From positions 1-64,000 of the forward strand of contig NZ_CP036282.1 of the NCBI RefSeq assembly GCF_006974105.1: a DNA stretch of 64,000 nt, in the 5' to 3' direction. The stretch is from Rhodoferax aquaticus. GTDB taxonomy: Bacteria; Pseudomonadota; Gammaproteobacteria; Burkholderiales; Burkholderiaceae_C. A program made the translations under genes and the position numbers. Below are positions 1,393 to 39,546 of this stretch, piece by piece. Within the stretch, counting starts at the first letter, position 1. Each line of letters opens with the position of its first letter. The notes under the pieces were generated by a model that worked only from the letters and a program-made list of their open reading frames with translations, had not been told where the DNA came from and made no database searches.

Positions 1393-1511
1393 CAAAAAAA
1401 AGCGCAGTTCACGCCGCTACGCACCTGATTACAAAGGAAAATGGCTAGGTCCACTTATAGTGTCGAAGGGAATCACTCGATGCAATGGCAGATACTTATG
1501 AAGAGGTTGAC

Positions 1512-8728: not shown

Positions 8729-9544
8729 TTACTTCCCCCCAAACAAGCGCTTCAACAGTCCTTGTTTGGGAGCGTCAATGAAGCGCATTGGCTTGTCTGT
8801 ACCCAGAAAACGCTCTACAACGTCTTTGTAGGCTTCGGATACATCACTACCTTGCATATGCACTGCAGGCACTCCCTGGTTAGAAGCCTGCAATACGGAC
8901 TCACTTTCGGGAATCACACCAATCAGCTTAATGCGCAGAATGTCTTGTATGTCTTCTAAAGAGAGCATCTGCCCCGAATCGACGCGGGCGGGGTTGTAAC
9001 GGGTGATGAGCAAATGCTCTTTGATGGGCTCCAAGCCTTCCATGGCACGCTTGGTCTTGCTGCCCAACATACCCAAAATGCGGTCCGAGTCACGCACGGA
9101 TGACACTTCAGGGTTGGTCACCACCAACGCTTCGTCAGCAAAGTGCATGGCCATCAGAGCACCAGTTTCAATACCCGCTGGTGAGTCGCAGACGATGTAT
9201 TCAAAGTCCATCGCGCTGAGGTTTTCTAGCACCTTTTGCACACCGTCTTGTGTGAGGGCGTCTTTGTCGCGTGTTTGTGAAGCGGCCAAGACATACAGGT
9301 TGTCGCACTGCTTGTCTTTGATGAGCGCCTGGTTTAAATTGGCTTCACCTTGAATGACATTGATCAGGTCGTACACCACGCGGCGCTCGCAGCCCATGAT
9401 CAGGTCTAGGTTGCGCAAGCCCACATCGAAATCAATCACCGCTGTTTTGTGGCCTCGCAGGGCGAGTCCTGTTGCAAAACTGGCACTGGTGGTTGTCTTA
9501 CCCACGCCGCCCTTGCCAGAGGTAACCACAATGATTTTTGCCAT
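8729..9544 (-). CDS. minD: Septum site-determining ATPase MinD
   Basis: 271 residues. Deviant Walker [20 protein letters not shown] near the N-terminus, Walker B region [16 protein letters not shown], and the amphipathic C-terminal helix ([10 protein letters not shown]) that binds the membrane. MinD-ATP recruits MinC to the membrane and is stimulated by MinE. Middle gene of minCDE, 35 bases after minC. Confidence 0.98.
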
Positions 9545-9579: not shown

Positions 9580-10359
9580 TCAGGTTTTGAGGGCTTCAAT
9601 GATCAACTTTTCTTGACCATCGTCGCTCAAGCGCACTTGCGCTGCCTTGCCTTGTACATCAGGCGCTAAAGGATTCTCGCTGGTGCGGTACACACCTGCT
9701 ATGGAGATGAGCTCGGGCTCCATGCACAGCGAAAAAATGCGTGCTTGCGTATTGCCCCGGGCACCAGCCATGGCCTTGCCTCTGAGCGGTGCGTACACAT
9801 GGATATTGCCATCGGCCACCACTTCGGCACCCTGGTTCACCATGGCCAACACCACCAAGTCTGCACCACGGGCGTAGACCTTTTGGCCTGACCTGAGTGG
9901 CCTGTCCACCACCATGGTCGTGGGGCCAGGTATTTCGCGAATGACTTCTCGCACCACCTCTTGAACAAGCACTTCGGCTTGCACGGGTGCGGCTTTGGGT
10001 TTGTAAACCTCTGGGCTGGCTTCTACCAAACCTACGGCTAAGGCGGCTGACATCCACTCTGGACTGGCGCCACGGACAGCCACTGGCACCAAATTGCACG
10101 CTCGCAACACCTTTAGCAAAGGAATCAGGTCTTGCAAAGGTGTTTGGGGATCGAGCTGAGTGAAGTCGATTACCAAGGCATCGTGGTCAAAAAAATCTGG
10201 ATTTTCCCCTTGGGGACCAAATTGCTGTGACAGGTCCGCTTGTACCAAGGCCCAGTCATCCGTTTTCAACATAAGGGCCACCAATGGCAGCTGCGCACTT
10301 TTGATTTCAAAAGAAACGCTGGGCTGCCGGGTGCTAGAGCCTGTTGAAGAAACGGACAT
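9580..10359 (-). CDS. minC: Septum site-determining protein MinC
   Basis: 259 residues. N-terminal MinC domain (FEIKSAQLPLVALMLKTDD), a variable linker, then the beta-helical C-terminal domain (GQKVYARGADLVVLAMVNQG, GNIHVYAPLRGKAMAGARGN) that binds MinD and FtsZ. It blocks FtsZ assembly away from midcell. First gene of the operon; it points away from the 10.4-10.9 kb intergenic region proposed as the origin. Confidence 0.97.
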   Translation of the reverse strand: MSVSSTGSSTRQPSVSFEIKSAQLPLVALMLKTDDWALVQADLSQQFGPQGENPDFFDHDALVIDFTQLDPQTPLQDLIPLLKVLRACNLVPVAVRGASPEWMSAALAVGLVEASPEVYKPKAAPVQAEVLVQEVVREVIREIPGPTTMVVDRPLRSGQKVYARGADLVVLAMVNQGAEVVADGNIHVYAPLRGKAMAGARGNTQARIFSLCMEPELISIAGVYRTSENPLAPDVQGKAAQVRLSDDGQEKLIIEALKT

Positions 10360-10541
10360 GAAGGAGCTTAGACGAGGTACACAAATTAAACGATGGGCAA
10401 ATCTTACTTGATTGCAGCTTCGATTCCGCCCTTTGGACCTACTTCTTTGCAGATGTTCACAACTAAATTTTGAAAAATGAAAACGGCTTTTTTTGACGTT
10501 TGTTTTTTGTTGCTATCTCTTCTTATTTCTCTATTTTAAGA

Positions 10542-10557
10542 TAGTAGTAGTAGATAG
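10542..10557 (+). promoter_or_regulatory. DnaA-trio-like TAG repeats
   Basis: TAGTAGTAGTAGATAG. Read 3' to 5' this is a run of GAT triplets, the DnaA-trio pattern. The T-rich duplex lies on its left and the GC-rich spacer plus first DnaA box on its right. Confidence 0.65.
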
Positions 10558-10571
10558 TGTCCCGCTTCCTC

Positions 10572-10580
10572 TGTTGATAA
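10572..10580 (-). promoter_or_regulatory. DnaA box, one mismatch
   Basis: Minus strand TTATCAACA against consensus TTATCCACA; the box nearest the TAG repeats. Confidence 0.6.
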
Positions 10581-10690
10581 GCGAAAATTATCTTTATAAA
10601 TCAACAAGTTATGAAGTCTCCAATGATGTGGGTGACTGCGCTTTCTTTTTGTACCCGAAAACTGGATAACTTTCTCTGTTTGGATATTTC

Positions 10691-10752
10691 TGTGGATAAC
10701 TTGCTTCTTGTTAGAGATTTATGCACAGGGTTGTTCTTTTCTTTGTGGTTAA
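10691..10752. promoter_or_regulatory. Cluster of three DnaA boxes
   Basis: TGTGGATAA at 10691-10699 is the exact reverse complement of TTATCCACA. TTATGCACA at 10719-10727 fits TTATNCACA exactly on the plus strand. TGTGGTTAA at 10744-10752 has one mismatch on the minus strand. A weaker ACTGGATAA lies at 10661-10669. Confidence 0.75.
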
Positions 10753-10848
10753 CGGTTTTTGATGAATCCGCGGGTTTAAAGTAAGTTTTTCACCACGGGT
10801 TTGCTGGACAATGGACGCTGGCTTTTGTTTTCTAAGTAGGTGCATGTA

Positions 10849-10893: not shown

Positions 10894-12462
10894 ATGAGTG
10901 ACAAAAAACCGTTTGAAATTGCGCGCGAGACACTCAAACAGCTGACGGCTGGGAAGTTGTTACCTACTCCTTTGAATTACCAAAAGATCTACAACGAGAT
11001 TGCTGGCATACCGCAGATGCCTCAGTTTCCGATGGAGACTCTGCGTGATATTGCGCAGGCGCTGCCAACCAAGACACCAGGTCAGCAAAAGCAGCGTGGT
11101 TTGCTGGAGTACGCCATTGACCGCATGAACTGGGATGGTGTGAAGGCCGCCTTGGTGGCATACGGGGGGTTTGTCCCTCCACCCGCTGAGGCTGGCTCTG
11201 GGGCAGCAAGCCCAGGCACGTTGCCGGGTGGCGCGGGTGATACGACGCTTCTAAGCCAAGGCGCACCAGCACTAACGCCTGAGTTTTTCAAACAAGTCGG
11301 CCGCATGATCGAGTTCTTGCAACCAGCGCTGGGCAACGACGATGCGCGATTTATGGAGCAGACCGACACCCTGCTCAAGGCAGTGAAAAAGCCTGATGTG
11401 GATGCTGTGCAGGTTAAACAACTACTGGTTAGCTATAGCGACCGCTTGTCTTTTGTGGCGGAGGACCAAGCAGAAATACGTAAGACGCTGTTAAAGCTTC
11501 TCCACCTTGTGTTTGAGAACATCGGCGAGTTGAGCATTGACAACCAGTGGCTGTCTGGGCAAATGGATGCACTCAAAGCCGCTTCTGGCCCACCACTTAC
11601 CTTGCGCCGATTGGACGAAGTCGAACGCAAGCTCAAAGACGTTATCTTTAAGCAAAAAGACGCCAAGGGCCACGCTGTTCAAGCGCAAGAGGACATGCGC
11701 AAGATGCTCGCGACGTTTGTGGAGAGGTTGTCACAAATCACCCAATCAACCGGTAACTTTCACGCAAAGCTAGAAGAAAGTGCGCGGCTGATTGAGCAAG
11801 CGAAGACCATCACGGAGATAGCGCCTGTTTTGAAGGAAGTGGTTGGCGCGACGCGTGATATGGCGTATGACAGCAAGGTGTCGCGTGATGAGTTAGTCGC
11901 TATGCGCGAGCGAGCGCAGGCGACGGAGACAGAGATTGCTAAGTTGCACCAAGAGTTGGACAGGGTTAGTGCCCAGTCACGCCATGATTCCTTGACAGGC
12001 GCTTTGAATCGAAAGGGCTTAGACGAGGCCATGGAGCGTGAGGTTTCCAACGTTCGCCGCAAAGAAACACCGTTGTGTGTGTCCTTGTTGGATATTGATA
12101 ACTTCAAGCAACTCAACGATAGCTTGGGCCATGCGGTGGGAGACAACGCTTTGGCCCATTTGGCCACAGTGGCGCGAGAATGTATGCGTCCCCAAGACAC
12201 CTTAGCCCGTTACGGGGGTGAGGAGTTCGTCATACTGATGCCTGATACGGCGATGGAGAAGGGAATAGAGGCCATGACGCGCTTGCAAAGGGAGTTGACT
12301 AAACGCTTTTTTCTCGCCGGTGAGGACAAGGTGTTGATTACCTTTAGCGCAGGCGTTGCGCAACTAGCCACCGACGAGAAGGGCTCAGACGCTATCAGAC
12401 GCGCTGATCAATCCATGTATCTGGCAAAACGCTCGGGGAAAAACCGCGTGGTGGGGTCCTAA
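10894..12462 (+). CDS. Diguanylate cyclase (GGDEF)
   Basis: 522 residues. The first ~350 residues are soluble and largely helical, with a proline/glycine-rich linker near residues 90-115 and coiled-coil-like stretches at 225-370; no membrane segment or known sensor domain is seen. The C-terminal GGDEF domain has the active-site motif GGEEF (near residue 440) and an inhibitory RxxD site, RPQD, five residues before it, so an active, product-inhibited enzyme making cyclic-di-GMP from two GTP is expected. It is the first gene to the right of the putative origin and is two bases from nnrU. Confidence 0.93.
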   Translation: MSDKKPFEIARETLKQLTAGKLLPTPLNYQKIYNEIAGIPQMPQFPMETLRDIAQALPTKTPGQQKQRGLLEYAIDRMNWDGVKAALVAYGGFVPPPAEAGSGAASPGTLPGGAGDTTLLSQGAPALTPEFFKQVGRMIEFLQPALGNDDARFMEQTDTLLKAVKKPDVDAVQVKQLLVSYSDRLSFVAEDQAEIRKTLLKLLHLVFENIGELSIDNQWLSGQMDALKAASGPPLTLRRLDEVERKLKDVIFKQKDAKGHAVQAQEDMRKMLATFVERLSQITQSTGNFHAKLEESARLIEQAKTITEIAPVLKEVVGATRDMAYDSKVSRDELVAMRERAQATETEIAKLHQELDRVSAQSRHDSLTGALNRKGLDEAMEREVSNVRRKETPLCVSLLDIDNFKQLNDSLGHAVGDNALAHLATVARECMRPQDTLARYGGEEFVILMPDTAMEKGIEAMTRLQRELTKRFFLAGEDKVLITFSAGVAQLATDEKGSDAIRRADQSMYLAKRSGKNRVVGS

Positions 12463-36089: not shown

Positions 36090-38087
36090 ATGCTTTACCC
36101 ACAGAATTTTGACGTCATCGTTGTCGGTGGTGGCCATGCCGGTACCGAAGCCGCATTGGCGTCCGCACGCATGGGGTGCAAAACACTGCTGCTCACACAC
36201 AACATCGAGACCTTGGGCCAGATGAGCTGCAACCCGTCGATTGGCGGCATTGGCAAAGGGCACTTGGTCAAAGAGGTGGACGCGCTCGGTGGTGCCATGG
36301 CCTTGGCCACGGACGAGGGCGGCATCCAGTTCCGTATTTTGAATTCGAGCAAAGGCCCGGCCGTGCGGGCCACCCGCGCGCAGGCAGACCGGGTGCTGTA
36401 CAAGGCGGCCATTCGCCGCATGTTGGAGAACCAGCCAAACCTCTGGCTGTTCCAGCAAGCGGTGGACGACCTGATGGTCGAGGGCGACCGCGTGGTCGGT
36501 GCCGTCACCCAAGTAGGCATCCGTTTTCGCGCCCAAGCGGTGGTGCTTACCGCCGGTACCTTCTTGGACGGCAAGATCCACGTGGGCTTGAACAACTACT
36601 CCGCGGGCCGTGCGGGCGATCCACCCGCAGTGAGTTTGAGTGCGCGCTTGAAAGAGCTGAAGCTGCCGCAAGGCCGCCTGAAAACAGGCACCCCTCCGCG
36701 CATTGATGGGCGCAGCATTGACTTCAGCAAGTGCCAAGAACAACCTGGGGACGGCATGGAAGGTGGCATGGGCGCGGCCATGCCGGTGTTCAGCTTTATG
36801 GGCAAGGCAGAGATGCACCCGCAGCAAATGCCCTGCTGGATTACCCACACCAACCAGCGCACGCACGACATCATCCGCAGTGGCTTTGACCGCAGCCCCA
36901 TGTTCACCGGCAAGATTGAGGGCGTGGGCCCACGCTACTGCCCGAGTGTGGAAGACAAGATTGGGCGCTTTGCCGACAAAGAAAGCCACCAGATTTTTCT
37001 GGAACCCGAAGGCCTGACCACGCACGAGTATTACCCCAACGGCATCTCCACCAGCTTGCCGTTTGATATCCAGTACGACTTGGTGCGCAGCATGGCGGGC
37101 TTGGAGAACGCGCACATCTTGCGCCCTGGCTACGCCATTGAATACGACTACTTTGATCCGCAGCAGCTCAAGAGCTCGTTCGAGACCAAGGCTATTCAAG
37201 GTCTGTTTTTTGCCGGGCAGATCAACGGCACGACCGGGTATGAGGAGGCTGCGGCGCAAGGCTTGTTTGCTGGCATCAATGCGGCGCTGCAAGCCGGAGC
37301 CAAGACGGCCTGGACGCAAGAGACCTGGGTGCCCGCGCGTGATGAGGCCTACTTGGGTGTGCTGGTGGACGACCTGATTACCAAGGGTGTGTCTGAGCCC
37401 TACCGCATGTTCACCAGCCGCGCGGAGTTCCGCTTGCAGTTGCGAGAAGACAATGCCGACGCCCGCCTGACCGAAACAGGCCGCAAGTTGGGCTTGGTGG
37501 ACGACGCACGGTGGGAGGCTTTCAGCCGCAAGCGCGACGCTGTTTCACGTGAAACAGAGCGCCTGCGCTCGATCTGGGTGAGCCCCAAAAACCTGGCTGC
37601 TGCGGAGTCTGAGCGCGTGCTGGGCAAGGCTATTGAACACGAATACAACCTGGCTGACCTGCTGCGCCGCCCCAATGTGAGCTACGGCGATTTGCTTTCT
37701 TTGGATGGTGGCCGCTATGCCAACGCAGAGCTAGCCACGCCGCAGGGCCAAGTGCCCACGCCTTTTGTGGCGACCGTGGTGGAGCAGGTGGAAATTGCTG
37801 CCAAGTATTCCGGCTACATCGACCGCCAGCGCGACGAGGTGCAGCGTGCATCGCACTACGAAAACCTGCGGCTGCCTGCCGAGTTGGACTATATGCAAGT
37901 GACCGCTTTGAGCATTGAAGCGCGCCAAAGTTTGAACAAGGTGCGACCAGAGACGCTGGGCCAAGCCTCACGCATGTCGGCTATCACGCCCGCCAGCATC
38001 TCCTTGTTGATGATTCACCTGAAGAAGGGCGGCTTCAAAGAGTTTGCCAACGTGCCACGCACGGCGACCCCTGAGGTGGTGAGCTGA
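36090..38087 (+). CDS. mnmG: tRNA uridine-5-carboxymethylaminomethyl modification enzyme MnmG
   Basis: 665 residues. FAD motif [20 protein letters not shown], signature [35 protein letters not shown], and [17 protein letters not shown]. With MnmE it makes the cmnm5 modification at the wobble uridine of several tRNAs. It is slightly longer than the E. coli enzyme (629), partly through a longer insert before [14 protein letters not shown] perfect parS site lies inside the gene at 37541. Its TGA stop shares one base with the ATG of rsmG. A -10-like TAAAAT lies upstream at about 36016. Confidence 0.97.
37541..37556. promoter_or_regulatory. parS: parS site 1 (perfect)
   Basis: TGTTTCACGTGAAACA, the exact 16-base palindrome bound by chromosomal ParB, placed inside mnmG. 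Confidence 0.95.
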
Positions 38088-38749
38088 TGCGGCCGTTGGA
38101 ACAGGGTTTGCGCCAGGGCTTGGACGCGCTGGCGCTGGGGCTGACAGATGCGCAAGTAGGGCAGTTGCTGGACTACTGCGACCTGATCCAAAAGTGGACC
38201 AAAGTCTATAACCTGACGGCGGTGCGCGATCCGGCCGAAATGTTGACCCACCATTTGCTGGACAGTTTGGCGGTGATTGGCCCACTGCGTGCGCAGATTG
38301 CCGCCCTCCCGTTGCCCGCTCATGCTGTCTGCCGTTTGCTGGACGTAGGTTCAGGTGCTGGTCTGCCCGGTGCGGTGATCGCCATCTGCTGCCCTGAGGT
38401 ACGTGTGGATTGCGTGGACACGGTGGCCAAGAAGGCCGCATTTATCCAGCAGGTGGCGGTTACTTTGCGCCTGCCCAATCTGCGTGGCGTGCATGCCCGG
38501 GTCGAAAACCTGAGGGACAAGTACCAAGTGATCAGCTCGCGCGCGTTTGCATCTTTGCTGGATTTCACCAATTGGTCGCGGGCGGCCATGGGTGAGGGCT
38601 CTGTTTGGATGGGTATGAAGGGCAAGCATCCTGCGGAAGAGCTTCAGGTTTTGCCTGCCGATGTGCAAGTGTTTCACGTGGAACAACTCACGGTGCCCGG
38701 CTTAGATGCCGAGCGCTGCATCATCTGGATGCGCCTGGCGACTGCCTAG
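38087..38749 (+). CDS. rsmG: 16S rRNA (guanine-527-N7) methyltransferase RsmG
   Basis: 220 residues. YCDLIQKWTKVYNLTAVRDP, the SAM motif LLDVGSGAGLPGAVIAICCP, and VISSRAFASLLDF are RsmG family marks. It methylates G527 in 16S rRNA. ATG overlaps the mnmG stop by one base. A second parS site is inside the gene. Confidence 0.96.
   Translation: MRPLEQGLRQGLDALALGLTDAQVGQLLDYCDLIQKWTKVYNLTAVRDPAEMLTHHLLDSLAVIGPLRAQIAALPLPAHAVCRLLDVGSGAGLPGAVIAICCPEVRVDCVDTVAKKAAFIQQVAVTLRLPNLRGVHARVENLRDKYQVISSRAFASLLDFTNWSRAAMGEGSVWMGMKGKHPAEELQVLPADVQVFHVEQLTVPGLDAERCIIWMRLATA
38670..38685. promoter_or_regulatory. parS: parS site 2 (one mismatch)
   Basis: TGTTTCACGTGGAACA, one mismatch to the palindrome, inside rsmG. 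Confidence 0.88.
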
Positions 38750-39530: not shown

Positions 39531-39546
39531 TGTTTCACGTGAAACG
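39531..39546. promoter_or_regulatory. parS: parS site 3 upstream of parA
   Basis: TGTTTCACGTGAAACG, one mismatch at the last base, 53 bases before the parA start; it may also serve in ParB autoregulation. Confidence 0.88.

Follow-up and report, generated by a model that had tools for sequence, protein, structure and literature searches.

The window (the whole 64-kb stretch of DNA analysed here) opens at dnaA and belongs to a genome consisting of one contig of 4,737,690 bases, which encodes one DnaA. A module of ~240 bp lies 9.1 kb beyond the end of dnaA, in the gap between minC and a GGDEF (diguanylate cyclase) gene, which are transcribed divergently, away from a cluster of DnaA boxes (Table 1). 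On the + strand, the module is composed of an AT/CT-rich stretch, a TAGTAGTAGTAG run, a spacer, box 1, an IHF consensus and further boxes. The run of four TAG triplets is the sole exact occurrence in the window on both strands. The IHF site, predicted from sequence, sits between the trio-proximal box 1 and the remaining boxes, the last three of which (TTATCCACA, TTATGCACA and TTAACCACA) fit within 62 bases.

A preliminary description of this DNA had reported, at 10485-10760, an AT-rich divergent gap with four TAG triplets and a GC-rich spacer, a one-mismatch box followed by three boxes in 62 bases, flanking genes pointing outward, a distance of about 10 kb from dnaA and parS sites 27-29 kb to the right. 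All of these were found, the parS sites as three parS-like sequences starting at 37541, 38670 and 39531. The two-mismatch box 2 on the - strand and the exact IHF consensus are absent from that description. The parS-like sites are located in or beside mnmG and rsmG and ahead of a ParA-like ATPase gene. GC content is lower in the first 18 kb of the window (49-56%) than from 18001 to 64000, where most values are 57-67%.

Table 1 Genes and sequence elements of the locus. Positions are those of the window.
Feature	Position	Strand	Remarks
dnaA	76-1392	+	TIGR00362, 546 bits; single PF00308 match in the genome
dnaA-dnaN gap	1393-1484	.	short; probable ancestral seat of the origin
minD	8729-9544		beyond minC; TIGR01968
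minC	9580-10359	-	left flank of the gap; TIGR01222, 177.6 bits
AT/CT-rich stretch, putative duplex unwinding element	10485-10541	.	72% AT vs 41% in the window
Candidate origin module, limits per family model R1	10501-10739	+	E 3.5e-40, 138.5 bits
Candidate origin module, limits per model R2 (without the window's genus)	10503-10738		E 4.5e-33
Four tandem TAG triplets TAGTAGTAGTAG, DnaA-trio run	10542-10553	+	trio-bearing strand
GC-richer spacer, trios to box 1	10554-10571	.	56% GC, 18 nt
Box 1, trio-proximal DnaA box TTATCAACA	10572-10580	-	one mismatch; position conserved in alignment A1
IHF consensus (A/T)ATCAAnnnnTT(A/G)	10599-10611	+	exact; consensus from PMC5742627
Box 2, weak DnaA box TTATCCAGT	10661-10669	-	two mismatches; GGA(T/C)AA conserved at this position
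Box 3, DnaA box TTATCCACA	10691-10699	-	119 bp from box 1; offset conserved
Box 4, DnaA box TTATGCACA	10719-10727	+	oriented opposite to box 3, 28 bp away; offset conserved
DnaA box TTAACCACA	10744-10752	-	outside the aligned module
GGDEF (diguanylate cyclase) gene	10894-12462	+	right flank of the gap; TIGR00254, 153 bits; PF00990
parS-like site	37541-37556	.	
parS-like site	38670-38685	.	
parS-like site	39531-39546	.	

A 190-bp segment contains four boxes that differ from TTATNCACA at no more than one position, a number not reached in any of 100 first-order Markov simulations run on the window. Counted singly across the whole window, boxes are no more frequent than expected by chance (23 observed vs 28 expected), so that clustering, rather than box number, is the outlier. 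Only one 50-bp place in the window forms a less stable duplex than the adjoining segment 10503-10552, places being counted if more than 200 bp apart. Among the marks of an oriC, the gap features an intergenic cluster of DnaA boxes and, next to it, an AT-rich, easily melted element; the module is moreover unique in its own chromosome and conserved in related chromosomes.

Within the genus, the four TAG triplets are found upstream of minC, with boxes at nearly constant offsets, in 21 of the 24 loci in which MinC was found (the window included). The exceptions are L085, which reaches a contig end, and L097 and L098, in which boxes are present and the exact run is absent. None of six loci from other families of the order carries the four triplets upstream of minC. 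A strict motif (TAGx4-N14,22-box) occurs in 22/299 genomes of the family, and its reversed control in none. The matches have differing neighbour genes, yet mostly keep distances of ~119 between boxes 1 and 3 and of 28 between boxes 3 and 4; L142 and L160 deviate from the latter.

We aligned 37 modules over 249 columns (alignment A1): that of the window, 18 from genus relatives located via MinC, one from a further genus member and 17 from other genera. Genus loci left out were L085 (contig ends), L097 and L098 (no TAGx4), and L091 and L102 (near copies); family matches left out were L146, L147, L150, L152 and L162-L165. The TAG run is present in all 37 aligned modules, with most columns invariant, in a set partly selected by the TAG motif. 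At the position of the IHF site, the consensus is exact in 11/37 modules and has at most one mismatch in 28/37.

The family model R1, built from A1, matched 287/299 family genomes at E <= 0.01, including 264 of the 267 good ones and 135/141 genera; 12 genomes, three of them good, had no match. Because the window's own sequence is among the 37 used to build R1, a second model, R2, was built from the 17 other-genera modules only. In the window's own 4.74-Mb genome, R2 gave a single match at E <= 10, located in the minC-GGDEF gap (Table 1), and it matched all 24 other genomes of the genus. The reading of this gap as a probable chromosomal origin, already put forward in the preliminary description, is supported at the sequence level by a genus-free model that picks it alone genome-wide. 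In the wider order, R1 matches are weaker (72/150 genomes at E <= 0.01, four of which are family members). Some of these order-level matches lie directly behind dnaA (G027, G029, G037 and G040, as well as G026 with R2), which suggests that the dnaA-dnaN gap is an old seat.

Among the matches listed, the module is found beside minC in Rhodoferax sp. TS-BS-61-7, further Rhodoferax, Limnohabitans lacus and a Comamonas MAG, and between dnaN and dnaA in a Polaromonas MAG. A trio-box layout is also seen beside minC in a MAG labelled Methylobacillus (L315, 6307, - strand), the MinC and MinD of which are 43% and 87% identical, respectively, to the proteins of the window. The layout may have arrived there independently or represent an old state, or the contig may be misbinned.

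A larger box cluster upstream of dnaA, the search for which had been proposed as a check, was not found: the rpmH-dnaA gap, located just outside the window (L010 19735-20000), has two boxes, TTATCCACA and the one-mismatch ATATCCACA, spaced by 49 bp. Such a perfect and one-mismatch pair recurs at 17 same-genus dnaA loci, with no TAG run within 700 bases at any of them; the loci outside the 17 are L122 and L124 (motif unmatched) and L129 (truncated). The persistence of this pair could mean that replication starts in the rpmH-dnaA gap, in which case the minC-GGDEF cluster would be a DnaA-regulated promoter or a datA-like DnaA-titrating site; an additional promoter role is conceivable, given the divergent minC and GGDEF genes. 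We regard an origin in the rpmH-dnaA gap as very improbable. That gap lacks both a TAG run and any R2 match at E <= 10, and titration has no need of a trio-box-IHF arrangement. A promoter role would leave unexplained that the layout of the module is constant beside many different genes, and the strand asymmetry of one relative, G269, rejects dnaA, as described below. The rpmH-dnaA gap is presumably the dnaA promoter region.

The dnaA-dnaN gap is a commonly reported seat of oriC. In the window, this gap has no DnaA box. We surveyed 38 closed genomes from 31 genera, in all of which an R1 match and DnaA were found. The module occupies the dnaA-dnaN gap in 13/38; in 12 of these, no more than 108 bp separate dnaA from the nearest copy behind it, and in G293 the copy is directly before dnaN, at a contig end. 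In one genome (G161), there is a copy upstream of dnaA at a distance of a few hundred bases, beyond the conserved promoter box pair. In 24/38 genomes, the nearest copy is 9.1-299 kb from dnaA (median 59 kb). At measurable loci, dnaA-dnaN gaps with the module inside are 193-296 bp long, whereas those of genomes with the module elsewhere are mostly 34-143 bp and box-free. Exceptions are the gap of G015, in which one TTATCCACA persists and the model matches weakly (E 3.5e-4), single-mismatch boxes at a few loci, and the 374-bp gap of L234. Of the 38 closed genomes, 30 were placed, together with four outgroup rows, in a DnaA tree, which is weakly supported (13/31 inner branches starred) and on which the location switches between near and away at least five times. 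The dnaA-dnaN gap is probably the ancestral seat of the origin, which seems to have been relocated repeatedly within the family.

Copy number also varies. The closed genomes carry one (21 genomes), two (14 genomes) or three modules (3 genomes). Copies are as close as about 0.3 kb in G214 and as far apart as 28 kb in G311, where one of them occupies the dnaA-dnaN gap; G044 has three copies, at 40, 49 and 69 kb. G043, G160 and G187 are also among the closed chromosomes with two or three modules. In the same-genus G015 (L081), tandem modules are located at 2479 and 2928, and a weak relic lies behind dnaA. Since 17 of the 38 closed relatives have two or three copies and G015 combines two tandem modules with a relic in the dnaA-dnaN gap, the chromosome analysed here could be imagined to have more than one active origin, with the minC module as one among them. 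This is highly improbable, as R2 has just one match at E <= 10 in the genome.

Strand asymmetry was analysed in the window's own genome and in three relatives with distant modules (G269, G112 and G055). In the own genome, raw skew, synonymous sites, k-mers and an octamer fit dnaA (at 0) and the module (at 10 kb) equally. The cumulative GC skew, which the preliminary description had put forward as a check, has its minimum at -20.6 kb, 31 kb left of the module, and is flat from about -60 to +12 kb; it fits the module, and dnaA just as well. In G269, the module lies at 672.7 kb, 299 kb away from dnaA at 972 kb. Switch points, all near the module, were found at ~705 kb for raw skew, at 660-800 kb for synonymous sites and at 664-736 kb for the octamer GGGGCTGG, and dnaA is rejected, as the log-likelihood is lower by 9.3 for the octamer and by 12.1 for synonymous sites. 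In G112, which has modules at 395 and 399 kb (~397 kb) and dnaA at 134 kb, raw skew favours the module, with its minimum at ~372 kb and a bootstrap 5-95% range of 270-457 kb. Synonymous sites instead point to dnaA, with 136 kb preferred and the module 7.6 worse, over a bootstrap 5-95% range of 130-491 kb; the octamer does not discriminate between the two. In G055, the orientation of a KOPS-like octamer gave a Fisher p of 0.42. Asymmetry supports an origin at the module without settling the question, G269 speaking for it and G112 being contradictory.

The octamer GGGGCTGG, also used in G269, is biased to the leading strand in 68 sampled stretches (1.35 Mb) of the own genome, with a leading to lagging ratio of 163:39, a stronger bias than that of the KOPS-like GGGNAGGG (100:43). 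It may be an FtsK-orienting or other polar sequence in this lineage.

The position of the own-genome skew minimum, together with the mismatch in box 1, might also suggest that an earlier origin has decayed here and that initiation now takes place at an unrecognised site. This is barely credible, since the family model gives the module 138.5 bits, a score that ranks with the highest among the matches listed, and the trios, the IHF consensus and boxes 3 and 4 are all intact. Given its elements and their spacing, its conservation, its uniqueness in the own genome and its varying location among relatives, we conclude from sequence comparison that the minC-GGDEF gap is very probably the chromosomal origin oriC, and that its module probably goes back to an origin seated between dnaA and dnaN, from which it was relocated.

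We infer binding, melting and initiation at the module, as well as the route of its relocation; the opening steps are modelled on the trio system of the Bacillus subtilis type (PMC8287927) and on the role of IHF in Escherichia coli (PMC5742627). DnaA would bind boxes 3 and 4 and the weak box 2, and a bend induced by IHF (or HU) at its site would bring the DnaA complex to box 1. From there, DnaA could extend through the GC-richer spacer to reach the TAG trios on the + strand, and the AT/CT-rich stretch would melt toward minC, followed by helicase loading. Relocation probably proceeded by copying, with subsequent loss of the old copy.

The DnaA-trio system, or BUS, is described for B. subtilis and other bacteria; it was searched for as a box with up to two mismatches and a spacer to the first trio of at most 16 nt (PMC8287927). 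The trio consensus is given as TA(A/G) (PMC5742627). Similarly, the module has a DnaA box, a GC-richer spacer, tandem middle-A trios and an AT-rich stretch beyond, and box and trios lie on the strands described. The DnaA-trio layout that had been proposed for the gap holds with respect to the trios, at least three of which, with a middle A, lie beside the AT-rich stretch in the correct orientation to the box. The spacer is 18 nt, two over the published limit, if only the tandem trios count. It would measure 14 nt from a frame-shifted TAG at 10555-10557, and relatives featuring TAGx4-TAAGG have 13-15 nt between trios and box. Unlike BUS as described, the module has a single, weak trio-proximal box, with no second box recognised directly beside it, and, as in E. 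coli, an IHF consensus with boxes 90-150 bp off on the far side. The module resembles the E. coli oriC (PMC5742627) in the order of unwinding element, box, IHF site and boxes, in its length of about 245 bp and in the identical IHF consensus. It differs in that the TAG trio run replaces the 13-mers and in the number and spacing of boxes.

The placement of the module, regarded as notable in the preliminary description, is indeed away from dnaA; it is, however, common in the family (24/38 closed genomes) and known elsewhere. In E. coli, the origin also lies away from dnaA. Cupriavidus metallidurans belongs to the same broad lineage as the window's organism. In chromosome 1 of strain CH34, the GC skew shifts ~90 kb from dnaA, where an origin was suggested, and a 213-nt stretch ahead of the shift contains three perfect DnaA boxes (PMC2864759). 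The likeness is one of description, and that description does not mention trios, an IHF site or a conserved module (PMC2864759). The oric1 of Burkholderia cenocepacia J2315, near dnaA, combines DnaA boxes with an IHF site and an AT-rich block (PMC4948915). Compared by description, it is unlike the module in having dispersed features and two candidate clusters. In Synechococcus lividus PCC 6715, the authors of DoriC placed a box-cluster origin far from dnaA and dnaN (PMC6323995); this is a single case, in a cyanobacterium, with the box TTTTCCACA. Searches of the freely accessible literature turned up no account of an origin module in the family that is conserved, relocating or present in several copies. 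An origin distant from dnaA is known in kind, and the module is an interesting variant of it.

Origin finding based on dnaA would miss the origin of this chromosome by 10 kb and those of other family members by up to 299 kb. A similar question arises in related lineages, as the exact position of the B. cenocepacia origin was called not clear by the authors in 2016 (PMC4948915). The occurrence of DnaA-trios and an IHF site in one layout could serve to test the joint working of two described opening mechanisms. A sequence model that is independent of neighbour genes opens questions on the rate of origin mobility, on a two-origin stage and on the use of a spaced second copy. More tentatively, and as a possibility that we consider rather less than probable, the family origin may be a compact mobile module that was copied and reseated repeatedly, some multi-copy chromosomes firing from more than one copy. 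If so, chromosomes such as that of G311 would be natural multi-origin bacterial chromosomes caught mid-relocation.
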